Shown: positions 18,227-34,712 of the stretch, one piece after another
How the letters are laid out: each line of letters begins with the position of its first letter
How positions within the stretch are numbered: the stretch's first letter is position 1
Origin: Candidatus Bathyarchaeota archaeon
GTDB lineage: Archaea; Thermoproteota; Bathyarchaeia; Bathyarchaeales; Bathycorpusculaceae
Assembly: GCA_026014545.1 (NCBI GenBank)
Contig: JAOZIH010000003.1
Span: 62,001-126,000 of the forward strand
Direction of reading: 5' to 3'
DNA: 64,000 bases
Translations under genes and position numbers: made by a program
The notes under the pieces: generated by a model
Told to the model about the DNA's origin: nothing
Database searches by the model: none
The model's input: only the letters and a program-made list of their open reading frames with translations

Positions 18227-18957
18227 GCATAGTGGGCATAGGCCCTGGCGCCCTTGAGCACCTTACACCTAAAGCGCGACAAGCCATAGAAACTGCCGAT
18301 GTTGTCATAGGCTATAGAACTTACATCAAACTAATTCAGCCTATCATCGCAAGCAACGCAGAGGTCATCTCAGGCTTTATGGGGCAAGAAGTTGAAAGAG
18401 CACGAGCCGCTGTAGCAAAGGCTCTGGAGAACAAGCACGTAGCCGTCATTAGCAGCGGCGACCCAGGTGTTTACGGCATGGCTGGCGTAGTTTTAGAAGT
18501 CGCAGCACATGAAAAAGCAGATGTGCCCATAAAAATTATTCCAGGCGTAACCGCTGCAACGGCAGCAGCGGCAGCGCTTGGCGCGCCTTTGGTTGGCGAT
18601 TTTGCCGTAGTAAGCCTCAGCGACCTTCTGACGCCATGGGAGCTCATCGAAAAAAGGTTACATGCTGCTGCCAAAGCTGATTTTGTAATTGTGCTATATA
18701 ATCCTCAAAGTCAAGGTCGCAAAGAACCATTGGCAAGGGCGCATCAAATCCTGCTTCAGTACAGAAGCTGCGATACTCCAGTAGGCATCGTTAAAGCGGT
18801 TGGGCGAGACGGCGAAAAAGTGATAATCACTACGCTTAGAAGCATGCTTGACTACGAAATAGATATGAGTACAACAATAGTGGTGGGTAACTCAACCACG
18901 CGCGTCATAAATGAAAGAATGGTTACGTCGCGAGGATACAACATCCGCGAGCGCTAG
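18124..18957 (+). CDS. cbiH: Cobalt-precorrin-3B C17-methyltransferase CbiH
   Basis: Methylates C17 and drives ring contraction. From about residue 34 it shows VGIGPGALEHLTPKA, ISSGDPGVYGMAG and KIIPGVTAATAAAAALGAPL, followed by the CbiH-type DLLTPWELIEKRL and VLYNPQSQGRKEPL. The only in-frame ATG is 18124, which makes the first 34 codons overlap cbiG; no ATG, GTG or TTG lies nearer the conserved domain. A GGAGG sits only 3 bases before this ATG. It ends convergent with nicO, overlapping by 4 bases. Confidence 0.93.
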   Translation: MRTSSIDRSGSKSETNSEKNKAERRDSGHSRGRISIVGIGPGALEHLTPKARQAIETADVVIGYRTYIKLIQPIIASNAEVISGFMGQEVERARAAVAKALENKHVAVISSGDPGVYGMAGVVLEVAAHEKADVPIKIIPGVTAATAAAAALGAPLVGDFAVVSLSDLLTPWELIEKRLHAAAKADFVIVLYNPQSQGRKEPLARAHQILLQYRSCDTPVGIVKAVGRDGEKVIITTLRSMLDYEIDMSTTIVVGNSTTRVINERMVTSRGYNIRER

Positions 18958-19661
18958 CCTATAAGCAACCAAAACGCCAAAACAAGAAGCACTGCGCCAC
19001 TAACTTTGGGGAAATATCTCTCATACTTGCTGATTCTTGCTTTAACCTTCTCGTACATCTTTATTCCAAGAATAGTGACGCCCACAAGCCCTGTGGTCAC
19101 CGCTAATCCGTAAGCTGTCATCATGAAAAGCGGGTTAACCCCACCCATTGCCAACGCGAGAAGTGCGAATTCTTCTTCGTGGGCGAAGCCTAGGAAAAAT
19201 GCGCAACTCGCTATTTTCCATAAACTAAAATTGTTCATTCGTTTTGGATGAAAATGCGGATGTGTATGCCAACCAATGCCTGGATGCTCATGTGCATGCT
19301 CATGCTCGAGGTCTTCCGTGCTATCATGTAAGTGTCCATGCTGGCTTTTCAGCTCAGACTCTGTCTTTTCCATAAAAAACTTAATTGCCAAAAGTACTAA
19401 CGCTGCGAATGCTATGTATTTGAGAATTGGGCTTGTGAAGTTTATCAGCGTGCTTGCTGCAACGTAGATTATTACAACGGTGATTGAGGATATAAAGTGA
19501 AAGAATGAAATTATGCTTGAGCTAACTAACGCGTAAAAGGTAGGCTTGGATGTCCGCGCCGAATACAATAATGCGATGGGCCAGCCATGTCCCGGTTCTA
19601 ATCCATGCAGCAGCCCTATTGCAACAACACCTATTAGTGCAGGATCCAAGTTGATGCTCAT
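18954..19661 (-). CDS. NicO/UreH-type nickel-cobalt transporter
   Basis: A 235-residue membrane protein with six hydrophobic segments. The first helix motif LLHGLEPGHGWPIAL resembles the HX4DH region of Ni/Co transporters, and the cytoplasmic loop about 107-141 is very His-rich (HGHLHD, HEHAHEHPGIGWHTHPHFHP), as in RcnA/NicO metal exporters. A second motif GFAHEEEFALLALA follows. The start ATG overlaps the cbiO stop as ATGA, so it is the fifth gene of the cbiMNQO operon. Direction of transport is not visible. Confidence 0.82.
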   Translation of the reverse strand: MSINLDPALIGVVAIGLLHGLEPGHGWPIALLYSARTSKPTFYALVSSSIISFFHFISSITVVIIYVAASTLINFTSPILKYIAFAALVLLAIKFFMEKTESELKSQHGHLHDSTEDLEHEHAHEHPGIGWHTHPHFHPKRMNNFSLWKIASCAFFLGFAHEEEFALLALAMGGVNPLFMMTAYGLAVTTGLVGVTILGIKMYEKVKARISKYERYFPKVSGAVLLVLAFWLLIG

Positions 19662-20530
19662 GTGCGTGTCCTCTTTTTCTTTTCACCAGTTTCTGATTCT
19701 AAAAGCCTCAATATTTCTTTTCTTGCCTCACTTATGGTAAGTGGAAGACGCGGGTTTATCGGCAATTTATCTTCCTTCTTCAAGACCTCAAAGAGATGCG
19801 TTATCCGCGGCGAACGCAAGTTAATGCTTCGAATCAATTCCGTGTCTGAGAACAGCTCTGCAGGCGCTCCTTCCGAAACAAGTTTTCCCTTATTCAATAT
19901 GTACAGTTTGTTAGCAAACAACGGCACCATATCCACGTCATGTGTAGCCAATATTAAGGTGAGACCAAGCTCTTTGTTAAGCCTCAGAAGTAAATGCAAT
20001 ATTTCGCTTGTGCCGCGGGGATCCAGATTCGAGGTTGGCTCATCCAAAATGATGGCGTCAGGCTTCATGGCAAGCACTCCCGCGAGCGCAACCCTCTTCT
20101 TTTGCCCAAAGCTTAGAAAATGTGGGGGCTTCTCTGCGTACTCGCTCATGCCCACAAGCTTAAGTGCTTCGTCAACAGCCTTCCGCACTTGATCTGCTGG
20201 TTGCCCCAAGTTTAGCGGTCCAAAGGCAACATCTTGTTTTACAGTCGGCGCAAAAAGCTGGTCATTAGGATCTTGAAATACGAAACCCACGCGTCTTCTA
20301 AGCTCAAGCAATGCTTTAGGCGTGTATTCCAGCGGTTTATCCTCAAAATAGACTTTTCCAGAAGTCGGTTTTAATATACCAATCAAATGTAGGAGAAGCG
20401 TGGTTTTTCCAGATCCGTTGGGTCCCAGAAGGGCTATTCTCTCGCCCTTAGAGAAGCTCAACGATATATTATCCAGCGCAATGGTGCCGTCGGAATATTG
20501 ATGTGATAAATTTTCTAATCGGAAAAGCAT
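19658..20530 (-). CDS. cbiO: Cobalt ECF transporter ATPase CbiO
   Basis: ATP-binding subunit that powers the CbiMNQ cobalt importer. Walker A GPNGSGKTT, Q-loop VFQDPNDQLFAPTV, signature LSFGQKKRVALAG, Walker B AIILDEPTSNLDPRG and the switch His in ATHDVDM are complete. I use the ATG at 20530 (290 residues); a TTG at 20545 would overlap the cbiQ stop. The C-terminus is charged and extended (GEKKKRTRT). Confidence 0.95.
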   Translation of the reverse strand: MLFRLENLSHQYSDGTIALDNISLSFSKGERIALLGPNGSGKTTLLLHLIGILKPTSGKVYFEDKPLEYTPKALLELRRRVGFVFQDPNDQLFAPTVKQDVAFGPLNLGQPADQVRKAVDEALKLVGMSEYAEKPPHFLSFGQKKRVALAGVLAMKPDAIILDEPTSNLDPRGTSEILHLLLRLNKELGLTLILATHDVDMVPLFANKLYILNKGKLVSEGAPAELFSDTELIRSINLRSPRITHLFEVLKKEDKLPINPRLPLTISEARKEILRLLESETGEKKKRTRT

Positions 20531-20537
20531 CTTTGCA

Positions 20538-21335
20538 CTACACAATCCTAATGTTTACTGTTAAATATGCAACTATTGCAAGCGCGACTGCAAAAAACAT
20601 AATTCCCGCCAATGCGGCATTATTTGGCTTTGGCACGTCTTCAAGAACACGAATGTTGCCATCATAGCCTCTAGCGCTCATGGCAGTAAAGGTTCGTTCT
20701 CCTTGATCTAATGTTCGTATAAAGAGATTTCCAATAAGCATCGACAGCGACCTAAGTTTCTTCAACAAACCTGAATAGCCGAGGCGGAGCTCTTGAGCTA
20801 TATGCATGGTTTCCATGACCTCTATGAAGACGAATATGTACCTGTAAATTAGTAATGACATTTCCACTATTATCTTGGGAACACGTGCTTTTCGGAGAAT
20901 CAACAGTATACTTGTCATAGGTGTCGTCAACACGAGGAAAAACTGGCTTGAAAGCGCCCCTGCCACCCTGAAGAACGTGGTGAAACCTGTTGCTACCCCG
21001 TCTCTGAAAATAGTCCATCGCAACCCAAGCAAGTTTACCTCCGTAAGGGGTTCTAGGTAACCGAAAAAGAGCGCAATTATGACGCAGGTCAAGGCAACAA
21101 TCACCGTTGGATACCACAGCAGCCTAAGGTAGAAGCGCCATGGGATTTTCGCGCATAACAAAATCATGACGGTGGTTGTTAGAAACACGGTTATGGGCAC
21201 AACTGGAGACGGCGACAAGACGCTTATGAGTAGCAGTGAAAGTGCAAAGAAAAGTTTGGTTACTGGACTATTTTTTGATAATGCATTTGTATAGGCGTAT
21301 CTGTCAATTTCCGCTGATAAATTAAAGTGACTCAT
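20538..21335 (-). CDS. cbiQ: Cobalt ECF transporter permease CbiQ
   Basis: Energy-coupling transmembrane T-component. About 265 residues with five hydrophobic segments and the two coupling-helix motifs, here ELRLGYSGLLKKLRS and FTAMSARGYDG, that bind the ATPase. The ATG at 21335 is preferred over the TTG at 21344. Lies between cbiN and cbiO. Confidence 0.94.
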   Translation of the reverse strand: MSHFNLSAEIDRYAYTNALSKNSPVTKLFFALSLLLISVLSPSPVVPITVFLTTTVMILLCAKIPWRFYLRLLWYPTVIVALTCVIIALFFGYLEPLTEVNLLGLRWTIFRDGVATGFTTFFRVAGALSSQFFLVLTTPMTSILLILRKARVPKIIVEMSLLIYRYIFVFIEVMETMHIAQELRLGYSGLLKKLRSLSMLIGNLFIRTLDQGERTFTAMSARGYDGNIRVLEDVPKPNNAALAGIMFFAVALAIVAYLTVNIRIV

Positions 21336-21364
21336 ATCGCTCAATATCTTCGTGTATGTGCCAC

Positions 21365-21640
21365 TTATTCTTTTACTCTTTTCCCCTTCTCATATCCAAT
21401 AAAATAGCCAATTATTATAGCGCCTATTGCCGCTTGAACCGCAAATAACAAGCTCTCTATTTCGCCGCTTGGCGGTTCCCATATAGGCGTGAACCACGGC
21501 TCGTAACCCTGCTCGCTTAAGGCTTCTTCCGCAGCGCTGTCTGCGCCACCAAATTCCGCCGAGGGATGCATTATCAAAGGTGTAATAAAAAGCGCAAGCA
21601 TTATCACTATTAGAATGGCATACTTTATTTTCGTCTGCAT
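21365..21640 (-). CDS. cbiN: Cobalt transport protein CbiN
   Basis: A 91-residue protein with two membrane helices (about 7-24 and 63-82) joined by an extracytoplasmic loop containing the CbiN pattern FGGADSAAEEAL and the YEPWFTPIWEPPSGEIESLLF segment. CbiN assists cobalt loading of CbiM. It begins on the base after the cbiM stop, indicating coupling. Presence of CbiN points to cobalt rather than nickel (NikMN) transport. Confidence 0.95.
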   Translation of the reverse strand: MQTKIKYAILIVIMLALFITPLIMHPSAEFGGADSAAEEALSEQGYEPWFTPIWEPPSGEIESLLFAVQAAIGAIIIGYFIGYEKGKRVKE

Positions 21641-22330
21641 TTACTTCGAAGCCTCCTGAGACTGTAAACCAACGCGCAAGCCAATTACGTTCATGGCGCT
21701 AAGGAGCTTTCCTTTATACTTCACTAAGAAATCGAAAAGGAAAATCGCCAATATACCCTCGCCTATGGCTAGCGGAATCTGTGTTATGGCGAAAATTGAT
21801 CCGAAAGTTATGAACGAGTCCATAAAGCTTGTTGATGGAAAAGCAAGCGCAAGCTGTAGAGACGTGGTAACGTAAGTGCTTAGGTCCGCAAGGGCAACGG
21901 CTATGAACACTCCTACTGATGTTGGTAACCGCGCTTTTTTGCTGACAACCCATAAAACATAACCCACCACGGGTCCTACTATTCCCATTGAAAAAATATT
22001 TGCGCCAAGCGTAGTTAAACCACCATGAGCCAGCAACAAAGCTTGGAAAAGCAAAACTATTGCGGAAAGAACCGAAGCAATCGCTGGCCCGAGCACTACA
22101 GCCGCCAATCCTGAACCCGTCGGATGTGAGCAGCTTCCTGTTACTGATGGTAGCTTAAGCGCTGAGAGCACAAAAACAAATGCGCCCATCACCGCGAGAA
22201 GCGGTTTAGCTTCAGGGAATTTTTCAGTGAGCTTCTTAAGCTTGTAAATACCCAGAATTACGACTATAATCGAGACTGCAAACCATATTTCCCACCATGG
22301 GTGGGGTAGAAAGCCTTCCATTATGTGCAT
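21641..22330 (-). CDS. cbiM: Cobalt ECF substrate-binding component CbiM
   Basis: Membrane S-component that binds Co2+ through the N-terminal Met1-His2 (MHIMEGFLP) and a histidine in GSCSHPTGSG (His69). The start must be the ATG at 22330 because the metal site needs the very N-terminus. 229 residues, about seven helices. First gene of the operon; a palindromic TATA box and the operator at 22344-22356 lie directly before it. Confidence 0.96.
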   Translation of the reverse strand: MHIMEGFLPHPWWEIWFAVSIIVVILGIYKLKKLTEKFPEAKPLLAVMGAFVFVLSALKLPSVTGSCSHPTGSGLAAVVLGPAIASVLSAIVLLFQALLLAHGGLTTLGANIFSMGIVGPVVGYVLWVVSKKARLPTSVGVFIAVALADLSTYVTTSLQLALAFPSTSFMDSFITFGSIFAITQIPLAIGEGILAIFLFDFLVKYKGKLLSAMNVIGLRVGLQSQEASK

Positions 22331-22343
22331 GTTATCGCCTTAA

Positions 22344-22356
22344 CTGGATAATCCAG
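22344..22356. promoter_or_regulatory. Operator palindrome, copy 1 (cbiM/regulator)
   Basis: CTGGATAATCCAG, a perfect 13-base palindrome, sits between the TATA box (22363-22372) and the predicted start of the leftward cbiM transcript. The core TGGATRATCCA recurs before btuF (24338-24348) and the chelatase gene (25759-25769). A protein bound here would block the cbiMNQO promoter. Seen in sequence; role inferred. Confidence 0.7.
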
Positions 22357-22362
22357 CCGAAG

Positions 22363-22372
22363 ATTTATAAAT
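22363..22372. promoter_or_regulatory. Palindromic TATA box between cbiM and regulator gene
   Basis: ATTTATAAAT is its own reverse complement and lies about 38 bases before the cbiM ATG and about 33-42 before the regulator's candidate TTG starts, so it can serve both genes. Confidence 0.55.
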
Positions 22373-22408
22373 GTTTGTTAAACTAAAGTTTAAGTCAGGT
22401 TGATTAAG

Positions 22409-23239
22409 TTGTCTAAGGCCCATCATTTCCTCCTACGCGACAAAGGCGCGCTCACAAAATTCCAAATATTATTCGAAATTATGCGTCAACAACCACACAT
22501 AAAGCAGAAAGACGTCAGCGAAGCGCTTGGAATCACCATACAAGCCGTCTCAAAGCACTTCAAAACTTTAATGAAAGAAGGTCTATTAGAGGCTGGATCT
22601 GAGCGTGCAGAATACAGGCTAACCGCTAAAGCCTATGAGAAACTCCAAGACTACCTAAAGAACATAGACGACTACGTTAAAACAATCAAGACTAATCTAA
22701 AAGTTGAACGCCTCATACCCGCCATAGCAATGCAACCTGTAAAAGCAGGCGACACAGTTGGCTTAGTCATGAAAGATGGTGTTTTATGCGCCGTAGCCTC
22801 TGCCAGAGCCAACGTTGAAGCCTCTGGAATTGCAATTAACGATGCAAACGCCGGTGAAGATGTTGGCTTAAAAGACGTTAAGGGCAAAGTGAAAGTACTT
22901 CCTGGCAAGGTTCTCCTTGTTAGGCTGCCCAGCATAAAAGAAGGCGGCTCAAGAGCCGTTGACATCGCTAAAGTTAGAATGTTGCATGAGGCATTCAAGC
23001 CAGATAGAATAGGCGTTATAGGCGTTGTTGGCAGAGCCGTTCTGAACAAGATAGGCCTTAAGGCAGACTTTGAATTCGGCATCAGCCGTGCAACCGCCGT
23101 CGCCGCATCTCGAGGGCTCAAAGTTTTTGTTCTCGTTGTGGGCAGAATGGCTAATCATGTAATCGATGAAATAGACATGGAAAACTTCAAACATGCCACG
23201 CATATAACCTATGAAGTTGAAGATGCGCGAATCCCTTAG
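22409..23239 (+). CDS. Winged-helix regulator, probable cobalt/B12 repressor
   Basis: About 277 residues. The first 75 form a winged helix-turn-helix (QKDVSEALGITIQAVSKHFKTLMKEGLLEAG) of the MarR/ArsR-like kind. The remaining 200 residues form a separate alpha/beta domain of a kind I do not recognise as a named ligand family, with segments such as VKAGDTVGLVMKDGVLC, DRIGVIGVVGRAVL and FGISRATAVAASRG. The first usable starts are TTG at 22400 and TTG at 22409; the latter has better spacing from AGGT. It is divergent from cbiMNQO-nicO and next to the first copy of a palindrome found at three cobalt/corrinoid promoters, so I infer that it binds that palindrome and responds to cobalt or a corrinoid. 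Confidence 0.75.
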   Translation: MSKAHHFLLRDKGALTKFQILFEIMRQQPHIKQKDVSEALGITIQAVSKHFKTLMKEGLLEAGSERAEYRLTAKAYEKLQDYLKNIDDYVKTIKTNLKVERLIPAIAMQPVKAGDTVGLVMKDGVLCAVASARANVEASGIAINDANAGEDVGLKDVKGKVKVLPGKVLLVRLPSIKEGGSRAVDIAKVRMLHEAFKPDRIGVIGVVGRAVLNKIGLKADFEFGISRATAVAASRGLKVFVLVVGRMANHVIDEIDMENFKHATHITYEVEDARIP

Positions 23240-23357
23240 CAACTCAAAGGTGTTCCATGTATAAGCAAAGACATTGCGTAAATACTAATATTTGCGCCGC
23301 ATTTTATACACGGCAAGCATTCACGCCTTAAAAGATGAAGCCCACTTGACTGACCAA

Positions 23358-24224
23358 ATGTTAACTCTACCTGACGGACGGCAACTCGGCTATCTAACAA
23401 TAGGAAAGGGGCAGCCTATAATCTACTTCCATGGTACTGCAAGTAGCCGACTGGAGATTCTACTCTTAAAGGAGCTTATTTCCCAAGCGAGATTGCAGAT
23501 AATAGGCGTAGATAGACCAGGCTACGGCTTGTCCACTTTCAAACCAATAAAAAGTCTCCGAGACTTCAACAGCGACATCAATTTCTTAGCTGACTATTTA
23601 GGTCTCAACAAATTTGGAATTCTCAGCTGGTCAGGAGGCGGCGTTTTCGCGCTCGCGTATCTCGCGCTTTGTCCCGAACGCGTAACCCGAGCAGTTGTTT
23701 CAAGCACGCCAGCTTTACCCTTTGATGCGGCTACAGCGCATAATACGCCTTTCGCTCGTTTTGTCATGCGTTTTCCGTTTTTAGGGCTGTTAGCTGTGAA
23801 AAACATGCGAGCTCAAGTGTTGAAAGCTAACCGTAATGTAGAAGTTTTCCTAGCTTCAAGAGAAGGAAAACGCATGCTGCACGGCTACTCCACGCCTGAT
23901 TTGAAATTTTTCTCCAATGTTGCTTGGGCGACTGTGCTGTGCCAATCGATGGCTGAGGCTTTCCGCCAAGGCGATTACGGCGTTAGGGCCGTACTTCAGG
24001 AGCATCAGCTTTTCACGAAGCCTTGGAGCATCCCGCTTTCCAAGATTCCCCCAGGTAAACTGTTCATTTGGCATGGTGCAGATGATAAGACCTGCAGAGT
24101 TGATAACGCATACAGGCTTTCTCAAAGTATTCCCGGTGCACATTTGGAAGTATTTAGCGGCAAAGGTCATTGTGTACTTTTTGATAATCTGGAGAAACTA
24201 AAAGAAATTTTCTGTTACGCTTAG
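23358..24224 (+). CDS. Alpha/beta hydrolase
   Basis: A serine hydrolase of the alpha/beta fold with nucleophile Ser in SWSGGG, acid Asp in WHGADDKTC, catalytic His in GKGHCVLFD and oxyanion-hole region YFHGTASSR. I prefer the ATG at 23358 (288 residues, MLTLPDGRQLGY); the frame extends to a TTG at 23292. Substrate unknown. It lies between the regulator and btuF but carries no operator of its own, so a link to corrinoids is only positional. Confidence 0.82.
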   Translation: MLTLPDGRQLGYLTIGKGQPIIYFHGTASSRLEILLLKELISQARLQIIGVDRPGYGLSTFKPIKSLRDFNSDINFLADYLGLNKFGILSWSGGGVFALAYLALCPERVTRAVVSSTPALPFDAATAHNTPFARFVMRFPFLGLLAVKNMRAQVLKANRNVEVFLASREGKRMLHGYSTPDLKFFSNVAWATVLCQSMAEAFRQGDYGVRAVLQEHQLFTKPWSIPLSKIPPGKLFIWHGADDKTCRVDNAYRLSQSIPGAHLEVFSGKGHCVLFDNLEKLKEIFCYA

Positions 24225-24322
24225 TACATTCGCCTTTCATTTTCATATCTATTTTTTGCTGGTTATCATTTTAGCGGAATGCATGACTTATTCAACTTAT
24301 GTTAAATTACAGTTTAAATAAA

Positions 24323-24332
24323 TTTTATATAG
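24323..24332 (+). promoter_or_regulatory. TATA box of the first btuF gene
   Basis: TTTTATATAG is 5 bases before the operator core at 24338-24348; predicted transcript start about 24353, giving a leader of roughly 95 bases before the TTG of btuF. Confidence 0.55.
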
Positions 24333-24337
24333 TTGGA

Positions 24338-24348
24338 TGGATGATCCA
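24338..24348. promoter_or_regulatory. Operator palindrome, copy 2 (btuF)
   Basis: TGGATGATCCA, differing from the other two copies only at the central base, placed just after the TATA box and before the predicted transcript start. Confidence 0.68.
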
Positions 24349-24367
24349 GCAGTAATGGAGGGAAAGC

Positions 24368-24424
24368 ATGTGCGTCGGCAAATTAGCAGTTTGTTTGTCT
24401 TGGCGATTTTGGAGCGGTTTGTGA
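24368..24424 (+). CDS. Possible 18-residue leader peptide upstream of btuF
   Basis: An ATG at 24368 follows a GGAGGG site at the usual distance and opens an 18-codon frame (MCVGKLAVCLSWRFWSGL) ending at 24424, inside the btuF leader. A second overlapping frame from ATG 24355 runs 32 codons and ends with TGA overlapping the btuF TTG start. Either could couple translation to btuF. Short frames occur by chance, so confidence is low. Confidence 0.25.
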   Translation: MCVGKLAVCLSWRFWSGL

Positions 24425-24449
24425 TTGTGAGTGTTCGAGGTGGATATGC

Positions 24450-25619
24450 TTGAAGAGAGTTTTGCTTGTAGTTGCGCTTATTGTTGTTGTGGTTGCTGCT
24501 TCGCTTTACGGTGGCTACAACTACCTATCTCAATCACCTTCCACATCACCCTCGCCAACTCCTTCGCAGTCGCCAACCAGCGCTTCCCCGACACCATCGC
24601 AGACGCCATCTTCCACGGCTACGCCAACGCCTTCCTCCTCGCCAACAATTGAACCGAACGCTACTCAGACACCAGAAGTACCGCAGATTTCAAACGTCAC
24701 CGTAGTTGACGCTAACGGCGCTAATGTCACTGTCACCATTCCTGTAAAGCGCATTGTGTGTCTTACTATGATTGAGATTGTTCATGTGTTAGGTGCAGGA
24801 GACAAGGTTGTGGGGCGCAGTGCTTCTTTAAGCTCTGATGCTGAGGCAATTTTGCCCCAGTCAATTTTACAGTTACCTGATGTCGGCACAGACATGGCTC
24901 CGAACCTCGAGCGGATAATTGAGTTGAAGCCTGATTTGGTTCTTGCTAGCCAGCGTTTGTCTGATGAAAACCGAAAGATGCTTGAAGATGCTGGAATAGC
25001 TGTTATTGAAGATACGTTGACGGGCACACGCCGAAATGACTGCATACGGAACTTGGCCTTGATATTGCAAGCAGAGCAGAAAGCAAACGAGTTCATTAAC
25101 TACGAAACGTATTACGTGAATCTGGTTAAGAATCGCGTTGCATCTCTGCCGCGCGACGAGAAGCCTTTAGTTTACTTTGAATGGTACAAGCTATGGTTCA
25201 GCACGGGTCCTGGTGGTTCTTATAATAAAATGATAGTTGATGCAGGCGGAATAAACATAGCGGAGAACGCTAGTACTTCAAATCCAGAGTTAAGCCCAGA
25301 ATTCATCGCTGAAGCAAATCCGGCTATTATAATTCGAATGTCAACTTATCTAGACGGCGAAGATTTGGCGTCACTACAAACGTTGAGAACCAGCATCTTA
25401 GAAAGGTCAGCGCTAAATGAAACACAAGCAGTTAAGAACGGTACCGTCTACGTAATCAAAAGCGTGCTGTTGGTTGACCGTGACGTGATCGGTTTGCTAT
25501 ACTTCGCAAAGTGGTTCCACCCAGATCTCTTCCAAGACATCGATCCTGCAGCGATACATGCTGAATATATCCAAAAGTTCTTTGGCGCTAATTTGGCTGG
25601 CGTGTTCACGTATCCATAA
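24450..25619 (+). CDS. BtuF-like corrinoid-binding protein 1
   Basis: A 389-residue extracellular binding protein of the Peripla_BP_2 class, anchored by one N-terminal helix (about 3-20). A Ser/Pro/Thr-rich linker (about 28-72) separates the anchor from the two-lobed domain, which shows VKRIVCLTMIEIVHVLGAGDKVVG, LKPDLVLASQRLSDEN and the C-terminal DPAAIHAEYIQKFFG. The start is TTG with a GAGGTGG site. It has its own operator-bearing promoter and is followed by a terminator. It presumably feeds the BtuCD transporter at 29-31 kb, as there is no other permease here. Corrinoid as ligand is inferred from context; iron-siderophore binding proteins share this fold. Confidence 0.82.
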   Translation: MKRVLLVVALIVVVVAASLYGGYNYLSQSPSTSPSPTPSQSPTSASPTPSQTPSSTATPTPSSSPTIEPNATQTPEVPQISNVTVVDANGANVTVTIPVKRIVCLTMIEIVHVLGAGDKVVGRSASLSSDAEAILPQSILQLPDVGTDMAPNLERIIELKPDLVLASQRLSDENRKMLEDAGIAVIEDTLTGTRRNDCIRNLALILQAEQKANEFINYETYYVNLVKNRVASLPRDEKPLVYFEWYKLWFSTGPGGSYNKMIVDAGGINIAENASTSNPELSPEFIAEANPAIIIRMSTYLDGEDLASLQTLRTSILERSALNETQAVKNGTVYVIKSVLLVDRDVIGLLYFAKWFHPDLFQDIDPAAIHAEYIQKFFGANLAGVFTYP

Positions 25620-25679
25620 GCAACTATCAAGGCGTACATTGACGCAAAAAGTTGCGATGGCTTCCTTTTTTTCTTTTTT
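25619..25679 (+). terminator. Hairpin plus T-run after first btuF
   Basis: GCAACT/AGTTGC arms (25620-25655) with an inner GCGT/ACGC pair are followed by a 14-base T-rich run (25666-25679). It separates btuF 1 from the operator-controlled chelatase promoter. Confidence 0.5.
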
Positions 25680-25748
25680 GCCGTTTTGGTCTTGTTTTAG
25701 CTCCTCTTTTATCTATTCAACCTGCATTAAATTTCGGTTGAACCAAGA

Positions 25749-25758
25749 TTTATATAAC
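25749..25758 (+). promoter_or_regulatory. TATA box of the chelatase-btuFCD-cobN-cbiZ operon
   Basis: TTTATATAAC, directly abutting the operator core at 25759. Predicted transcript start is near 25780, giving a short leader that contains the GGGAG site of the ATG at 25795. Confidence 0.6.
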
Positions 25759-25769
25759 TGGATAATCCA
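25759..25769. promoter_or_regulatory. Operator palindrome, copy 3 (chelatase operon)
   Basis: TGGATAATCCA, core identical to copy 1 and preceded by the same AAC. It overlaps the region between TATA box and transcript start. Confidence 0.7.
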
Positions 25770-25794: not shown

Positions 25795-27789
25795 ATGCGT
25801 TGGCGAACAAAAACCGTTTACCCCTTCAGCGCCATAGTTGGCCAAGAAAAAATGAAACTAGCACTAATCCTCAACGTTATAAATCCCAAAATTGGTGGAG
25901 TTTTACTCCGAGGAGAAAAGGGCACAGGCAAATCTCTGGTGGTACGAGCTTTAGCTCAGCTACTGCCCGAAGTTGATGTAGTGGCGGATTGTCCTTTCCA
26001 TTGTGACCCAACCAGACCAAAAGACATGTGTGACACATGCACTGCGCGGCTAGCCAAAGGCGAGAAACTTCCAGCGGCTAAAAGACCCGTCTCTGTAGTT
26101 GAGCTTCCCCTCGGCGCCACAGAAGACCGCCTTGTCGGCACGCTCGATATTGAAAAAGCAATTAAAACAGGCGAAAAACATTTTGAGCCGGGAATCCTCG
26201 CAGAAGCCAACCGAAACATCCTCTACATTGATGAAGTTAACTTGCTGGATGACCATTTGGTTGACGTTCTACTCGATGCTGCCGCCATGGGCGTAAACTT
26301 TGTAGAACGCGAAGGCATTTCTTTCAGCCACCCAGCCCAGTTTGTTTTAGTGGGCACAATGAACCCTGAAGAAGGCGAGTTGCGCCCTCAGCTATTAGAT
26401 CGCTTTGCACTTTCAGTAGAAGTCAAAGGTATCCCATATCAGGAAGCGCGAGCAGAAATAGTGCGCAGACGCGTTGCCTTCGAAAATGATCCAGCATCCT
26501 TCGTCGCGGAGTATCAAAGTGCACAAGAACAAATGCGCCACAAGATAGAAGAGGCCCGAAAGCTTCTACCCAACGTGAAATTAAGTGACGAAATGCTGGA
26601 GTTAATCACGAGAATCTGCATAGACTTCGGCGTTGACGGTCACCGGGCTGACATCACAATTTACAAGGCTGCTTGCACCATTGCCGCTTTTAAAGGACGC
26701 ACAGAAGTTATCGAGGAAGACGTAATAGAAGCCGCTGAGTTAGCGCTTGCGCACCGTCGCCGGCGCCAACCATTCGAAGAACCCAAGCTGGAGCAGCAGC
26801 AAATTCAAGAAAGCGTTCAGAACTGGCGCCAAAATAAAGAACCCCCCCAGTCCCAGTCTGAAAACAATTCTTCCCAAGATGAGCAGCCGCAAGAAAATGA
26901 TACGCCCGAAAAAGAACAAGTCTTCGATGCTGGATCTCCATATCCAGTAAAACGGCTATCTACGTCTGTTCTCGATCAGATGCAGCGTAGTTGTACGGGA
27001 AGAAGGTCCAAAAGCCGAAGCAAAGCCAAAACAGGGCGCTATGTAGATAGCGTAATCCCTAAGGGAAAAGTGGCTGACTTAGCTTTTGACGCTACACTGA
27101 GGGCTGCTGCTCCTTATCAGTTTCAGCGAAAAAATGACTATAGAGGTACAAACGCCTTGCTTATTGAAAAATCTGATTTACGAGAAAAAGTTCGCGAAAG
27201 AAAAGTAGGCAACTTAATCATGTTTGTAGTTGACGCCAGCGGCTCTATGGCTGCCGAAGAGCGAATGACCGCCACCAAAAGCGCCATACTTTCCCTTCTG
27301 CTTGATGCTTATCAGCGCCGTGACCGCGTGGGCATGGTCGTTTTCAGGAAAAACACTGCTGAATTGGTACTTCCACCAACCAACAGTGTGGATCTCGCTC
27401 AGAAATGCTTAGCTAACTTGCCTACGGGTGGCCGCACTCCGATGGCCCATGGATTAAATCTTGGACTAACAGTTATCCGCGAGTACATGCGGAGAGATAA
27501 AGAAGCGATTCCACTTTTAGTTTTGGTTTCTGATGGCCGTGCAAATGTTTCTCTAAACGGCGGAGACCCTGTGGAAGAAGCCAAAGCCGTAGCTCGCGCA
27601 ATAAGCTCAGCCGGAATAAACTCAATCGCAATAGATACCGAACGCAGTTTCATCACACTAGGGCTTGTTAAACAGATTTGCGCTGAGCTCGGCGGCAAAT
27701 ATTTCCAGCTAGAAGAACTTGCTGCCGCACCTATTATCTCAGCTGTCCGTGATAACCTGTTTCATGGTCTACAACATCTTAATAATTGA
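25795..27789 (+). CDS. ChlI-ChlD fusion, AAA+/VWA chelatase motor
   Basis: A 664-residue ATPase that powers metal insertion by a CobN/ChlH-type subunit. The N-terminal 330 residues are a ChlI/BchI AAA+ module (Walker [11 protein letters not shown]; Walker [14 protein letters not shown]; the DCPFHCDP...CDTC cysteine insert). An acidic, Gln/Pro-rich linker (about 335-385) leads to a C-terminal von Willebrand A domain with MIDAS motif [11 protein letters not shown]. Start: ATG at 25795 with GGGAG, although the frame is open upstream. The partner cobN is in the same operon. It corresponds in role to CobS-CobT of aerobic bacteria or ChlI-ChlD of chlorophyll synthesis. Confidence 0.9.
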
Positions 27790-27803
27790 TGTAAGGAGGT
27801 GAA

Positions 27804-29048
27804 ATGTTTTTGCGGAGATTTGTTCTTGCGGCTGTCGTTGTCGTTGCTGTTGTGGTTGCGGCTTCGGTTTATGGAGGCTACAACTATCTGTCTTCGCCTT
27901 CTTCGTCTCCTTTGCCTTCAGCGTCTCCTTCGCCGTCGGCTTCGCCTGTTTCTAGCCCTGTTGTTTCGCCTGAGCCTTCTGGTAGCGCTTCGCCTTCTCC
28001 TTCGGAGTCGCCGTCAGCCACGAGCACGCCTTCTCCTACGGAGACTCCCACTCCTACGCCCACATCAACGCCTACTCCTACTCCGACCCCTATTGTGCCT
28101 CAGAATATTACCATCGTGGATGGTGCAGGGAGAAATGTTACTTTAACGGTGCCTGTGAAGCGTATCGTCGTCATTAATGATGGCTTAACGGAAATGCTTT
28201 GTGCATTGGGTGCCGAAGACAAAATTGTGGGTCGTGATGCTTCCTCGAATATGCCTGAGTCTGTATTGGACATCCCTGTAGTCGGCGAAAACTCCTATCT
28301 GCCGAATGTCGAATTAATCTTGGAACTTAAGCCCGACGTGATATTCGCCGATTCAATGTTGCCCTATAACACCGTAGCCATGAGCCAACTAGAGGCAGCT
28401 GGTATACCCATTTTCATCTCTGATCCTGTTGATCCTGAGCCTACTAAACATTCAAATTTGACCGTGGTTGACTTCAGCTGCAACTTGTTAAGCAAATTAG
28501 CTACAATAGTTGGAGGACAAGACAAGGCTGAAGAATACATCAACTACGTCCAGTATTATAACAACCTCGTCAAACAGCGTCTCGCAAACTTAACTCAAGA
28601 ACAGAAACCCAAAGTCATGCTAGAATGGTATGCGCCATACAACACATTTGTCACACCTGGCATAGATCAAGCTGGCGGAATCAATATTGCAGAAAATCAA
28701 ACAGTCTACGCACCTGTGCTAAGCCCTGAATTCGTGGTTGAGCAAAATCCAGCTGTAATCATCCGCATGAGCAGTAGCTCCAATCATAACTTAACAGACT
28801 TCATTGCTGAGCGTGATGCAATAATGAACCGGACTGAATTAGCTGAGGTGGATGCTGTTAAAAACGGGAGGGTCTACATCTGCGATTGGGACATCAGAGG
28901 TGGAATAAGCAGCGTTGTTGGTTACCTTTACTGGGCTAAATGGTGCCAACCCTCGCTGTTTGCAGACATAGACCCAAATGCTGTACACGCGGAACTTTAT
29001 CAAAAGTTTTTCGGAACAACCGTAAAAGGAGTGTTTGCCTATCCATGA
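27804..29048 (+). CDS. BtuF-like corrinoid-binding protein 2
   Basis: A 414-residue paralogue of the protein at 24450: the same anchor helix ending in VYGGYNYLSS, a longer Ser/Pro/Thr linker (about 30-92) with TPTP repeats, and a Peripla_BP_2 domain (VKRIVVINDGLTEMLCALGAEDKIVG; DPNAVHAELYQKFFG at the end). Excellent AAGGAGGTGA site 15 bases after the chelatase gene. The stop overlaps the btuC start as ATGA, so it is the cognate binding protein of this transporter. The linker coding region is pyrimidine-rich. Confidence 0.87.
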   Translation: MFLRRFVLAAVVVVAVVVAASVYGGYNYLSSPSSSPLPSASPSPSASPVSSPVVSPEPSGSASPSPSESPSATSTPSPTETPTPTPTSTPTPTPTPIVPQNITIVDGAGRNVTLTVPVKRIVVINDGLTEMLCALGAEDKIVGRDASSNMPESVLDIPVVGENSYLPNVELILELKPDVIFADSMLPYNTVAMSQLEAAGIPIFISDPVDPEPTKHSNLTVVDFSCNLLSKLATIVGGQDKAEEYINYVQYYNNLVKQRLANLTQEQKPKVMLEWYAPYNTFVTPGIDQAGGINIAENQTVYAPVLSPEFVVEQNPAVIIRMSSSSNHNLTDFIAERDAIMNRTELAEVDAVKNGRVYICDWDIRGGISSVVGYLYWAKWCQPSLFADIDPNAVHAELYQKFFGTTVKGVFAYP

Positions 29049-30121
29049 GCAACGTCGCTGAGCTTAAAAAGCTATATGGCGCGGGCAAGAAACGAAAAAT
29101 TCTTGCCCTAACCTCCATTTTTTTAGCCATAATAGGCGCTGTAATCGTTTCAGTTAGCCTTGGCGCTGGCTCCCCACGATTTAACGAAGCCATACAAGTT
29201 ATTTTAGCTAAACTTTTTCCGTCTTTAGGAATAGATCCCGGTCCAACTGTAACTCAAATAATAATTTGGAACCTACGATTACCCAGAGTTATTTTAGCCA
29301 TAATTGCTGGCGCTGGTCTTGCCGCTTCGGGCGCAACGATGCAGGGAGTCCTGCGGAATCCGCTTGTTTCCTCTTACATTTTGGGGATTTCAGCAGCAGC
29401 AGGATTCGGCGCAGCATTAGCCATAGTGTTTGGCGTAGGCGTCATAGAAGGTTATGGTCATTACTTGGTTATTGCTAACGCCTTTTTCTTCAGCGTGTTA
29501 GCCATGATTCTGGTGTATTTTATTGCCCGCATACGTGCTATGAGCACTGAAACCGTGATCTTAGCTGGTGTTGCCATCGGTTATCTTTTCTCAGCGATGC
29601 TGTCACTGATTCAATATGTTGCACCTGAACATGAAGCTGTTCGCGCAGTTGTTTTTTGGCTTATGGGAGGCCTTAATTCTGCTAATTGGGAAAGCGTGCA
29701 AATTGTTTTCCCCGTAGTTTTAGTTACTATCATTCTTATGGTTTTTCAATCATGGAACATTAATGTACTAAGCATGGGTGAAGATGTAGCAACAAGTTTA
29801 GGTGTCAACTCTAAACGAGTTCTTACGATAACCATGATTTTGGAAACGCTGGCAACCGCTACAATTATCTCCTTTACAGGTGTAATAGGATTTATCTGTC
29901 TCATCTCTCCTCACATCTCGCGCATGCTTATCGGCAGTGACCATCGTTTTCTCATACCATGCAGCGCCCTTGTCGGCGCCTGCCTGCTCCTCTGTTCGGA
30001 TACCGTTGGGCGGCTGGTGATGCAGCCCGCCGAGTTACCAGTTGGTATTGTAACTTCACTGCTTGGTGTACCATTTTTCCTTTACATTCTAATAAGTAGA
30101 AGGAGGCAAAGTTGGAGATGA
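29045..30121 (+). CDS. btuC: Corrinoid ABC transporter permease BtuC
   Basis: FecCD-type permease, 358 residues, about ten membrane helices. Motifs: LRLPRVILAIIAGAGLAASGATMQG, NPLVSSYILGISAAAGFGAA, and the late FTGVIGFICLISPHISRML with the coupling-helix sequence. The ATG at 29045 overlaps the btuF 2 stop; the frame is open further upstream within btuF. Vitamin B12 and siderophore permeases cannot be separated by sequence alone; the operon supports B12. Confidence 0.92.
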   Translation: MSNVAELKKLYGAGKKRKILALTSIFLAIIGAVIVSVSLGAGSPRFNEAIQVILAKLFPSLGIDPGPTVTQIIIWNLRLPRVILAIIAGAGLAASGATMQGVLRNPLVSSYILGISAAAGFGAALAIVFGVGVIEGYGHYLVIANAFFFSVLAMILVYFIARIRAMSTETVILAGVAIGYLFSAMLSLIQYVAPEHEAVRAVVFWLMGGLNSANWESVQIVFPVVLVTIILMVFQSWNINVLSMGEDVATSLGVNSKRVLTITMILETLATATIISFTGVIGFICLISPHISRMLIGSDHRFLIPCSALVGACLLLCSDTVGRLVMQPAELPVGIVTSLLGVPFFLYILISRRRQSWR

Positions 30122-30951
30122 AATTAGTAATAAATAAGCTTTCCTTCAACTACGCCAGCATTCCAGTCTTAAAGGACATTGAATTTGCAGTGAATGCTGG
30201 AGAAATCTTAAGCATCGTCGGCCCTAACGGTTCAGGCAAAAGCACTCTTTTAAGGTGCATTAACAGAATTCTAAAAACCCGTCAAAATACTGTGCTCATC
30301 GATGGCAAGGACGTAAGTAAACTTAACCTGAGGGAATTATCCAAAATCATGGGTTACGTTCCTCAAGCCTCTGCTTGCACGTTTCCTTTTACGGTTTTCG
30401 ATGTGGTGCTGATGGGGCGGAAACCGTATATTCATTGGAGCTTAAGCGAACGTGACTACGAAATAGTTGCGGAGACCTTGGATTTCTTGGGCATCAAGGA
30501 ATTAGCAATGCGCCACTTTAACGAGTTAAGCGGTGGAGAACAACAGAAAGTGATCATAGCCCGCGCTTTGGCGCAGGAACCGCAGGTTCTGCTTCTCGAC
30601 GAGCCTACCAGCTCATTGGATATTAAGCATCAGCTCGAGATACTGCTTATACTCAAGTGTCTGGCGCAAAGCAAGCAATGCTCTGTAATAATGGCTATAC
30701 ATGATTTGAACATGGCAAGTCGTTTCTCAGACAGAATCCTAATGCTCAAAAAAGGCTGCATCTTCGCCGCAGGAACTCCAGAAACGGTGCTAACAGAAGC
30801 GAACATTTCAGCGGTCTACGGCGTTAAAGCACGTGTAATTAATTCCGTGGTTGATAGGCCGCAAATTACCCCCTTGCTGCCTGAATCTGCAGGCATTAAG
30901 CAGTGGAAGACCCCGCCAGCAGTTACAGCAAAATCCGAGGCGATTGCATAG
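30118..30951 (+). CDS. btuD: Corrinoid ABC transporter ATPase BtuD
   Basis: ATP-binding subunit, 277 residues, with Walker A GPNGSGKST, Q-loop YVPQAS, signature LSGGEQQKVIIARALAQ, Walker B VLLLDEPTSSLDI and switch AIHDLNMA. The ATG at 30118 overlaps the btuC stop; a TTG at 30112 sits closer to AGGAGG and is an alternative. The last about 40 residues extend beyond the usual domain. Confidence 0.92.
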   Translation: MKLVINKLSFNYASIPVLKDIEFAVNAGEILSIVGPNGSGKSTLLRCINRILKTRQNTVLIDGKDVSKLNLRELSKIMGYVPQASACTFPFTVFDVVLMGRKPYIHWSLSERDYEIVAETLDFLGIKELAMRHFNELSGGEQQKVIIARALAQEPQVLLLDEPTSSLDIKHQLEILLILKCLAQSKQCSVIMAIHDLNMASRFSDRILMLKKGCIFAAGTPETVLTEANISAVYGVKARVINSVVDRPQITPLLPESAGIKQWKTPPAVTAKSEAIA

Positions 30952-30953
30952 AT

Positions 30954-33900
30954 ATGGCAAAAGTCAAAATAGCGTTTGTCACGACAATTCCGACCGATGC
31001 TGTACCTTTTATTTCTGCAGTTAACTCCGTAAACGAAAGGCTAGGCAATGTGGTGGAGGCTCAAATACAAACTGGTGGAGACTTCAGAGCCTTCGGTAAA
31101 CTTGACGACTTCATTCAATTCGCTCAAAAATCCCATGTAACCTTAGTGCATCTAATGGGTGATCTACCAGAATTCGAGCTGCTTGCTTCGACGCTAAAAA
31201 CCGCGGGGGTCCCACTTTTCGTTTCTACATCATTTTTCGGTCAAAACGCCAAATACAAAGGCTATTCGACTGTCACGCAGGAAGATTACAAGCAGATTTT
31301 CAAGTATCTCAATTATGGCGGAAAAAGGAACATAGAAAACCTCTTACTTTATTTGGCTAATCGCTTCGCCGGCGCCAATTATGAAGTTAATCCGCCGGAG
31401 CGTCCACCCTGGGAAGGTATATACCATCCAGAGTTCTCAAAGCCACCCACATTTGAGGAGTACGCCGCAAAGAAAATAGTGCCTGGTAAACCAACCGTGG
31501 GGATTTGGTTCCATCAGACGCAATGGCAAGGCGAAAACACCGCTTTTGTAAACAAGCTAATTGAAGAAATAGAAAGGCAAGGCGCCAATGCGCTTCCCGT
31601 GTTCTTCACAGGCTCCAAGAATGAAGCATTAGGAATAAAAGGGCTGGACTGGGTTATTGAAAACTATTTCATGAAGAACGGGAAACCTACCGTTGACGTA
31701 GTAATCAGCGCGTTGGCTTTTTCTCTCTCCACCTCCCTGTTTGGCACCACTGCAATTGACGCCTTAAAGAAGCTGGGCGTGCCCATAATAAAGGCAATTC
31801 TAACCTGCAATACCCATGACGAATGGCGAGAAAGCATGCAGGGCATCAGCCTCATTGACGTGCCTACCAGTGTGGCAATGCCTGAATTTGATGGCCTATT
31901 AATAACGGTGCCCATCGCGGCAATGTCTTTTTCACAAGCCAGCGCTTCAGGAACTATGGTAATTCAGTACGAACCTATCCAAGAGAGAATTAAAAAGGTA
32001 GTCAGCTTAAGCATAAACTGGGCAAAACTGCGGCGCATCCCAAACAGCGAAAAGAAAGTTGCGATAATACTGCACAATTATCCGCCTCGGAACGACACAA
32101 TTGGCCATGCTTTCGGGCTTGATGTTCCCGTTTCAGTTCATAAAATCCTATGCGAACTACAAAAGGCAGGATATAAGCTGAATTGCATACCGGAAAATGG
32201 GCAGAAGCTCATTGAAACCATAATAGCCGGTTTAACTAATGATCGCCGCTGGCTAAGCACCGAAGAGCTTGCCGAAAGAGCCATCGCCAAAATTTCCAAG
32301 AAACAGTACCTCACATGGTTTAATGAGTTGCCCGCTGATGTCCAAGCTAAAATGAGGAAGGATTGGGGAGAACCCCCTGGGAAACTTTTCAGCTACAAGG
32401 ATGAGTTGCTGGTTGCTGGCCTGGTTACCGGTAACGTCTTCATTGGGCTGCAGCCGCCTCGCGGCTTTCTCGAGAACCCCTCCAGCATTTATCACAGCCC
32501 TGACATTTCAATGCCTCATCATTACTACGCGTATTATCGCTGGATTAGAGACGTATTCAAAGCCAACGTTATCATACATGTGGGCACTCATGGCACTTTG
32601 GAGTGGTTGCCTGGCAAATCCGTTGGGCTTTCCGCTTCGTGCTTCCCTGACATAGCCATTTCTGACTTGCCAAACATTTACCCCTACGTCATTACCAATC
32701 CCGGCGAGGGAACTCAGGCAAAACGGCGGAGCTACTGCTGCATTATCGAGTATCTGGTGCCCGTGATGCATAATGCTGACACTTACGAAGAACTTGCCAA
32801 GTTGGAGGTTCAACTGCAAGAGTATTACAATGTTAAAGTGGCTGATCCAAGCAAGGCACAGATTTCTCAAAAGCTGATCTGGGAAAACGTGGTTAACGCT
32901 AAACTGGATCACGACTTAAACATTACTGAAGATGCCGCTTTCGCCGACTTCGACGCTTTCCTGGAGAAGCTGCATGCCTACATACATGAATTATCGGATG
33001 CGCAAATCCGAGATGGCCTGCACATTTTCGGCGAGCCTCCAGTAGACTCGCGTCTAGAAGAGTTCCTAGTTACGCTGACAAGGTTAAACAATGGTTCTGT
33101 TCCTTCTTTGCGGCAGTCAATTGCGGAGATGAAGGGATACGATTACGAGGAGTTGCTGGCGCATCGGGGCAAGCTTAATGCAGACGGCCGGACAAACGGC
33201 GACATCCTCAGAGAGGTGCATGCGCTCTGTCTAAAGCTAATCCAAGAGTTCCATGCTAAGGGCTTCAGGGATCAAGATATTGATTCAGTGATGGAGCAGG
33301 TTCTTGGCGGAACTAATCCAAATGTGCGGAGATGCCTCGCTTACATAAGCAGTTTCCTTGTTCCTGCTTTGGCAGCTACTACTGACGAGATGGCGAATAC
33401 GTTGGGTGCTTGTGAAGGCACGTATGTCCCTTCGGGTCCTTCTGGCTCCGTGACAAGGGGTATGGCTGATATTTTGCCTACTGGCAGGAACTTTTATTCT
33501 GTCGACCCCCGCGCCGTGCCTTCACAGGCTTCCTGGCGTGTAGGAGTAGCGCTGGGCAATGCACTTCTTGAGCGGTATTTAAAAGAAGAAGGGCGCTATC
33601 CAGAAAGCGTTGGCATCGTCATCTGGGCTACCGACACAATGAAAACAAAAGGCGATGACATCGCCGAGATTCTTTATTTGATGGGCGTTAGGCCCGTGTG
33701 GGAAGAATCAAGCGGCCGTGTTGTCGGCATTGAAGCCATACCTCTGGAGGAGTTAAAGCGACCACGCATTGACGTAGTCGTTCGCATTAGCGGCCTTTTC
33801 AGAGACACATTTCCCAATGTAGTACACATAATCGATGACGCGGTGGCGCTGGTAGCCAGCCTTAAGGAGTCTCCAGAGCAGAACTATATCCTTAAGCATG

Positions 33901-34709
33901 TGGAAAACGAAGTGAAAGAGCGCGTGGCGCAGGGCGTTGAGCTTGAAAAGGCCAGGGAAGAGGCGTATTACAGAGTTTTTGGTGATCGTCCAGGCGCTTA
34001 TGGCTGCGGCGTCAGCGAGGCAATAGACGCCAAGAACTGGAAAGATCAGAAAGACTTAAGCGACATCTACGTGACTTGGGGCAGCTATGCCTACAGCAGG
34101 AAGGCTTATGGCCGTTTTGTTCCAGAGGAGTTTCAGCGGCGTTTAAGCGGCATTGACGCCACAGTGAAAAATCAGGATTCACGCGAATATGACATATTGG
34201 ATGGCGACGATTGGTATGACGCGCACGGCGGCATGATCAATGCCGTCCGAACCATCAAGGGGAAGGCGCCTAGGTCATATTGCGGTGACAGTTCTGACCC
34301 GAGCAGGGTTAAAGTCAGAAGCACCGCTGAGGAAACTTGCCATGTCTTCCGCTCGAGGCTTCTTAATCCCAAGTGGATTCAAAGTATGATGCGCCATGGC
34401 TATGAAGCAGCTGGCGACCTTTCAAGAACATTTGACTTTGTCTTAGGCTGGGATGCCACTGTTGAAGTTGTCGAGGACTGGATGTACGAGGAGTTGGCTA
34501 AGAAATATGTTTTCGACAAGAAGATGCAGGATTGGCTGAAAGAGGTGAATCCTTATGCGTTGCAGAATATGGTTGAGCGTCTGTTAGAGGCTATTGAGCG
34601 CAAACTGTGGAATGCGTCAGATGATATGAAGAGGGAACTGCATAAGTTATACTTGCAGATTGAAGGTTTACTTGAAGGCGCAAATGAAAATAAACAGAAG
34701 GTGAAATGA
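30954..34709 (+). CDS. cobN: CobN-type cobaltochelatase large subunit
   Basis: A 1251-residue tetrapyrrole-binding chelatase subunit. The family blocks are present: GIWFHQTQWQGENTAFVNKLI, PIIKAILTCNTHDEWRES, VAIILHNYPPRNDTIGHAFGLD, the HVGTHGTLEWLPGKSVGLS metal/porphyrin region, and YGCGVSEAIDAKNWKDQKDL near the C-terminus. The ATG at 30954 lies 2 bases after btuD with GAGGCGAT upstream. CobN normally acts with CobS-CobT (here the ChlI-ChlD fusion) on hydrogenobyrinate diamide in the oxygen-dependent pathway, yet this organism encodes the cobalt-early enzymes CbiX, CbiD and CbiG. The substrate is therefore uncertain. Confidence 0.93.
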   Translation: MAKVKIAFVTTIPTDAVPFISAVNSVNERLGNVVEAQIQTGGDFRAFGKLDDFIQFAQKSHVTLVHLMGDLPEFELLASTLKTAGVPLFVSTSFFGQNAKYKGYSTVTQEDYKQIFKYLNYGGKRNIENLLLYLANRFAGANYEVNPPERPPWEGIYHPEFSKPPTFEEYAAKKIVPGKPTVGIWFHQTQWQGENTAFVNKLIEEIERQGANALPVFFTGSKNEALGIKGLDWVIENYFMKNGKPTVDVVISALAFSLSTSLFGTTAIDALKKLGVPIIKAILTCNTHDEWRESMQGISLIDVPTSVAMPEFDGLLITVPIAAMSFSQASASGTMVIQYEPIQERIKKVVSLSINWAKLRRIPNSEKKVAIILHNYPPRNDTIGHAFGLDVPVSVHKILCELQKAGYKLNCIPENGQKLIETIIAGLTNDRRWLSTEELAERAIAKISKKQYLTWFNELPADVQAKMRKDWGEPPGKLFSYKDELLVAGLVTGNVFIGLQPPRGFLENPSSIYHSPDISMPHHYYAYYRWIRDVFKANVIIHVGTHGTLEWLPGKSVGLSASCFPDIAISDLPNIYPYVITNPGEGTQAKRRSYCCIIEYLVPVMHNADTYEELAKLEVQLQEYYNVKVADPSKAQISQKLIWENVVNAKLDHDLNITEDAAFADFDAFLEKLHAYIHELSDAQIRDGLHIFGEPPVDSRLEEFLVTLTRLNNGSVPSLRQSIAEMKGYDYEELLAHRGKLNADGRTNGDILREVHALCLKLIQEFHAKGFRDQDIDSVMEQVLGGTNPNVRRCLAYISSFLVPALAATTDEMANTLGACEGTYVPSGPSGSVTRGMADILPTGRNFYSVDPRAVPSQASWRVGVALGNALLERYLKEEGRYPESVGIVIWATDTMKTKGDDIAEILYLMGVRPVWEESSGRVVGIEAIPLEELKRPRIDVVVRISGLFRDTFPNVVHIIDDAVALVASLKESPEQNYILKHVENEVKERVAQGVELEKAREEAYYRVFGDRPGAYGCGVSEAIDAKNWKDQKDLSDIYVTWGSYAYSRKAYGRFVPEEFQRRLSGIDATVKNQDSREYDILDGDDWYDAHGGMINAVRTIKGKAPRSYCGDSSDPSRVKVRSTAEETCHVFRSRLLNPKWIQSMMRHGYEAAGDLSRTFDFVLGWDATVEVVEDWMYEELAKKYVFDKKMQDWLKEVNPYALQNMVERLLEAIERKLWNASDDMKRELHKLYLQIEGLLEGANENKQKVK

Positions 34710-34712
34710 AGC

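Follow-up and report, generated by a model that had tools for sequence, protein, structure and literature searches.

A 64,000-nt stretch of the Candidatus Bathyarchaeota contig JAOZIH010000003.1 (hereafter the window) contains three promoters of genes by which cobalt and vitamin B12 are taken up and salvaged, namely those of cbiMNQO-nicO, btuF1 and the chelatase-btuFCD-cobN-cbiZ operon. Each carries two distinct elements, element A upstream of the TATA box and a palindrome, element B, just downstream of it (Table 1). The winged-helix/DUF7839 protein encoded divergently from cbiM most likely acts at element A, where it is predicted to bind; element B is a separate operator of another, putative factor and recurs throughout the class Bathyarchaeia. 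The model as a whole, with this regulator at A, a second class-wide factor at B and a corrinoid as the signal, appears reasonably probable.

The regulon is well supported and protein-based, and control of uptake and salvage apart from synthesis is supported. The initial annotation of the window had already proposed such a regulon in place of a riboswitch. The cobalamin riboswitch model RF00174 has no match in positions 1-40000 of the window or in the whole genome (1.86 Mb), and the same search was positive in eight control bacteria. Import and salvage genes carry the sites, while the biosynthetic run lacks them, as had been noted for the palindromes; this holds for element A too, the upstream regions checked scoring far below zero. 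The three palindromes lie where they had been placed, just past the TATA boxes of the three transcription units, and the gene assignments are sound; what had been overlooked is that a longer conserved element precedes each TATA box.

Element A and the DUF7839 regulator

Element A and the TATA box follow the consensus CAACYTnnnTTAAAYTnnnGTTKAA-n6-TTTATA, with fixed spacing. Aligned by eye, the three copies read ATCAACCTGACTTAAACTTTAGTTTAACAAACATTTATAAA (cbiM), TTCAACTTATGTTAAATTACAGTTTAAATAAATTTTATATA (btuF1) and TTCAACCTGCATTAAATTTCGGTTGAACCAAGATTTATATA (chelatase), and the layout is a 16-bp dyad, TTTAACTnnAGTTAAA, preceded at a distance of about one helical turn by a third half-site, CAACCT. 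Perfect matches to TTAAAYTNNNGTTKAA-N6-TTTATA number three genome-wide, exactly at these promoters, and allowing up to two mismatches to the A plus TATA pattern adds a single match, which is the cbiM dyad as it reads from the other strand. A profile trained on other genera only (leave-genus-out) ranks the three sites as the top three in the window, with scores of 39.5, 29.7 and 23.4, whereas the highest score among 200 simulated windows is 12.6. An operator shared by several B12/cobalt promoters and absent elsewhere in the genome, as found here, is what would be expected of a protein-based, CBL-box-like B12 regulon.

Of the 91 genomes in the family, 43 encode the regulator, as do four others in the order. 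In the roughly 40 loci retrieved, its gene nearly always diverges from cbiM and often lies beside the cbi biosynthetic run, and element A lies between the two genes in nearly all of these relatives: the intergenic region keeps TTCAACCTnnnTTTAACTTTAGTTAAAC-GAAAG-TTTATAA, usually followed by TTCGG-TTGGATTATCCAA. The comparison of orthologous promoters that the initial annotation had suggested thus finds the sites conserved in dozens of relatives. A sequence-only model of A plus TATA box, searched in the order at E<=1e-3, detected element A in 49 genomes, comprising 47/47 with the regulator and 2/116 without it (p ~5e-39, not corrected for relatedness). Both A and the regulator are absent from the same-genus genomes G058, G083, G024 and G025, and regulator-less genomes of genera g5, g18 and g31 likewise lack A.

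The training sites of this model were regulator-cbiM intergenic regions, and weight is therefore placed on 98 sites that were not used for training, which precede chelatase (25), btuF (26), cbiM (8), cobN (4), regulator (2) and other genes (33). At a threshold yielding 212 element A sites, the reversed control gave none in 1.25 Mb of loci, which were chosen because they contain sites, so that the control shows specificity, not density. When A alone is used for scanning, its distance to the TATA box takes one value in 97 of the 124 cases with a box, and 23 more fall within 1 nt of it. Because A accompanies the regulator in all 47 genomes that encode it and occurs in only two others, ahead of cbiM, btuF, cobaltochelatase, cobN and the regulator itself, A is the most likely binding site of the regulator, in place of the palindrome TGGATRATCCA, at which the initial annotation had envisaged the adjacent winged-helix protein as a repressor.

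The regulator has an N-terminal winged helix-turn-helix (HTH) domain (HTH_24, 35.8 bits; MarR_2, 30.7 bits) and a C-terminal domain, previously left unassigned, that matches DUF7839 (PF25211) over residues 165-262 with 64.5 bits against a Pfam cut-off of 27. A profile search of the PDB matched the HTH only. Haloarchaeal plasmid homologues with 30-34% identity retain the whole architecture, and in three of five loci (Halococcus, Haladaptatus and Halorussus) their genes diverge from a cobalamin operon that begins with cbiT; thus the cobalamin link reaches another archaeal phylum. DUF7839 is also present in M. jannaschii, H. volcanii and M. acetivorans. Haloarchaeal cbiT-regulator intergenic regions (L157, L158 and L159, ~7840-7880) share AAAACAATTTTGGTTGTWTTA, a dyad with CAA-type halves that is a possible operator of these homologues.

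Folding drew on three sequences, and the DUF7839 models have an overall predicted local distance difference test (pLDDT) score of 56-61. These low-confidence models resemble tetrapyrrole methylases, the top Foldseek matches of one being 3nd1, 3hh1 and 8xj3, at E 0.03-0.07. These fold matches recur, but pLDDT is low and hhalign comparisons of DUF7839 with the window's methylases gave 0-4% probability, as did unrelated controls. DUF7839 was therefore not classed as a precorrin-methylase relative, and the modelled likeness serves as a lead.

Element B across the class

The 11-mer core of element B, TGGATRATCCA, has its only exact copies in the window at the three promoters. With up to one mismatch there are eight window matches, palindromes being counted on both strands, against 1.5 expected, and none of 100 shuffles reaches eight. 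A genome-wide scan, as the initial annotation had proposed, finds 10 exact copies, against one for the reversed pattern; seven of the ten lie in open frames of 129-522 aa, none of these being seen in a TATA or promoter-like context. The core alone is thus not diagnostic as a genome-wide marker, and it is the promoter context that is distinctive.

The full palindrome, TTGGnTGGATWATCCAnCCAA, is placed less strictly than A, mostly 5-9 nt beyond the TATA box. Allowing up to two mismatches, it occurs in 157 of the 257 class genomes sampled (the reversed control in only a handful), while the regulator is encoded in 46 of 251, so that most are without it. In 30 loci read, B again lies close to a TATA-like box, mostly at a gene for an energy-coupling factor (ECF) S component that precedes a small membrane protein gene, at btuF or btuC, at cobD, or between ECF-S and a gene of the PgpA family, to which archaeal CobZ belongs. 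Cobalamin-salvage genes of regulator-less genomes bear B as well; G002, which lacks both the regulator and A, has a perfect copy at its ECF-S promoter. Because B recurs without the regulator and without A, it probably has its own binder, and the pairing of regulator and palindrome made in the initial annotation is not supported.

The ECF S-component gene lies under B in L250-L253, L262-L265, L267, L270, L272 and L273. It is followed by the small membrane protein in 11 of these loci, and this protein, where tested (L251), contains DUF4430, the transcobalamin-like C-terminal domain. The pair is a candidate for an ECF system that takes up cobalamin in Bathyarchaeia.

A subfamily of DUF4443 (PF14544) winged-helix proteins was considered as the binder of B. 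Its genes stand beside B sites, divergent from an ECF S-component gene, or, in genus g38, directly after the DUF7839 regulator (L051, 3312-4037; L146-L148); B lies in front of them in L253, L267, L270 and L276. This candidate was set aside, as the remaining genomes sampled, the present one among them, have just the ubiquitous, unlinked copy, with no B next to it; a role of DUF4443 at B is a lead only.

Proposed regulation and competing explanations

Together the three promoters would make up a single cobalt/corrinoid-acquisition regulon in which each has two operators. The regulator would bind A, set at a fixed distance just upstream of the B recognition element (BRE) and TATA box, and would thereby also cover its own promoter, resulting in autoregulation. 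A second factor would bind B, which lies past the TATA box but ahead of the predicted transcription start, and would repress by blocking polymerase. The signal sensed would most likely be a corrinoid (cobalamin or cobinamide): uptake and salvage would be turned on when cobalamin is short, with de novo synthesis left out. As for the sign of regulation at A, the fixed A-TATA spacing favours contact with TBP/TFB, and the position of A over the regulator's own start favours self-repression.

The divergence of the regulator gene from a B-bearing promoter, the repressor position of B, and the presence of B also ahead of the regulator gene in genus g38 would fit a DUF7839 repressor that binds B, with A serving something else or promoter strength. 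This is unlikely, since B is so widespread at cobalamin-related genes of the class, many of them in regulator-less genomes, since the promoters of second regulator copies (L094, L114 and L150, in G027, G028 and G031) hold an A directed at the copy itself but lack a good B, and since many regulator-cbiM promoters keep A while B has at least two mismatches. Contact of the DUF7839 protein alone with both elements, perhaps by looping or by spreading over the TATA box, is likewise unlikely: the half-sites are dissimilar (CAAC/GTTAA versus TGGAT), the offset of B is variable while that of A is fixed, and B is present without the regulator. Such contact would account for the coincidence of the elements, as B (up to two mismatches) is found at 76 of the 96 A sites of uptake and salvage genes versus four of the 38 other A sites, which include reverse-strand readings of the dyad. 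This coincidence at most uptake promoters also weighs against assigning A to the regulator and B to a second factor, as do three further observations. Of the two A-positive genomes without the regulator, G023 is a fragmented assembly, but G135 is 95% complete and has A and B at its btu and cbiM promoters although no regulator was detected; also missing is the chelatase gene, next to which the regulator lies in sister genomes. In genus g5, A also precedes phosphodiesterase and surface-protein genes of unclear connection. The homologues of Haloarcula pelagica and Natronorubrum have no cobalamin neighbours, indicating that the DUF7839 family has other roles.

Within the regulon, the regulator could be a cobalt sensor and the regulon concerned with cobalt homeostasis, not corrinoid status. 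Its usual divergence from cbiMNQO, A with a partial B ahead of a NiCoT/NicO-type transporter in G017, and A ahead of cobaltochelatase genes agree with this. However, across 53 homologues no Cys or His is conserved in the effector domain, which argues against a metal sensor; the only such residues present in more than half of the sequences are H30 (HTH region, 92%) and H101 (57%). The conserved Cys/His ligands of ArsR/DtxR/NikR-type sensors are thus missing, and the NCBIfam metalloregulator match is far below cut-off. Also in the regulon are btuF/btuC and cbiZ, and one relative adds a DUF4430 surface protein. Cobalt sensing therefore seems rather improbable. Because the haloarchaeal homologues are divergent from a cobalamin biosynthesis operon, the signal is probably corrinoid status.

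A broader and rather speculative extension of the two-factor model, which we think improbable as a whole, would see in the DUF7839 proteins corrinoid-sensing transcription factors that are widespread in archaea, whose effector domain may derive from a precorrin-methylase-like fold, and which were added in Bathyarchaeia atop an older class-wide B system, resulting in dual control.

Among neighbouring genes, an alpha/beta hydrolase gene lies between the regulator and btuF1 (window 23292-24224); its homologues recur in cobalamin loci of relatives, once with element A upstream (L201). In genus g5, a gene of ~430 aa has A without B upstream (L204, L209, L212, L214, L219, L225 and L227) and belongs to the type I phosphodiesterase family where tested (L214). 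Element A also precedes the gene for a very large surface protein with FIVAR, dockerin and DUF4430 domains (L203, 1-4068, minus strand), possibly a corrinoid binder at the surface.

Table 1. Promoter elements and genes of the cobalt/B12 uptake and salvage loci (window coordinates)
Feature	Position	Strand	Sequence or remark
Element A, cbiM promoter	22377-22404	-	ATCAACCTGACTTAAACTTTAGTTTAAC; overlaps start region of divergent regulator gene
TATA box, cbiM	22364-22371	-	TTTATAAA; palindromic, could also serve regulator gene
Element B, cbiM promoter	22345-22355	-	TGGATAATCCA, inside 13-bp palindrome CTGGATTATCCAG
Regulator gene	22409-23239	+	Winged helix (HTH_24/MarR) and DUF7839; predicted element A binder
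cbiM	21641-22330	-	First gene of cbiMNQO-nicO (18954-22330)
Rest of cobalt uptake operon	18954-21640	-	cbiN, cbiQ, cbiO, nicO-like
cbiN	21365-21640	-	Assigned by position
cbiQ	20538-21344	-	
cbiO	19658-20545	-	
nicO-like	18954-19661	-	
Element A, btuF1 promoter	24291-24318	+	TTCAACTTATGTTAAATTACAGTTTAAA
TATA box, btuF1	24324-24331	+	TTTATATA
Element B, btuF1 promoter	24338-24348	+	TGGATGATCCA
btuF1	24450-25619	+	Corrinoid-type ATP-binding cassette (ABC) substrate-binding protein; Peripla_BP_2
Element A, chelatase operon promoter	25716-25743	+	TTCAACCTGCATTAAATTTCGGTTGAAC
TATA box, chelatase operon	25749-25756	+	TTTATATA
Element B, chelatase operon promoter	25759-25769	+	TGGATAATCCA
Regulated chelatase operon	25795-35447	+	Chelatase subunit, btuF2, btuC, btuD, cobN, cbiZ
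Cobaltochelatase subunit gene	25795-27789	+	ChlI/D-type; first gene of chelatase operon

Comparison with known systems

The cobalamin riboswitch, a bacterial device, likewise controls B12 uptake and cobalt transport genes but is absent from this genome. The regulator resembles MarR/HTH_24 proteins in its DNA-binding domain, but its large C-terminal DUF7839 is unlike the compact MarR dimer. RbkR and ThiR are archaeal vitamin regulators. They share with the regulator the combination of a winged helix and a metabolite-related domain acting on vitamin genes where bacteria often use riboswitches. The effector domains of RbkR and ThiR are known enzyme folds (riboflavin kinase and ThiN), whereas DUF7839 is without an assigned fold or ligand. 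RbkR is listed as a bifunctional gene regulator and enzyme (PMC8305020).

To our knowledge, no archaeal B12 transcription factor has been characterised, and a search for literature on the CBL-box, DUF7839 or archaeal B12 regulators returned nothing relevant. An archaeal CBL-box with a hypothetical B12 regulator was reportedly described by Rodionov and others in 2003. It is alike in being a DNA operator upstream of archaeal B12 genes that replaces a riboswitch; the system in the window differs in having two independent operators on either side of one TATA box, one of them tied to a named family. The present analysis thus provides a candidate regulator family (DUF7839), an exact operator and a list of target genes for cobalt/B12 uptake and salvage. 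The second, class-wide B12 box flags unrecognised salvage genes (ECF-S with DUF4430, and PgpA/CobZ-like), and in culturable haloarchaea, where DUF7839 homologues lie next to the cobalamin operon, direct testing is feasible.

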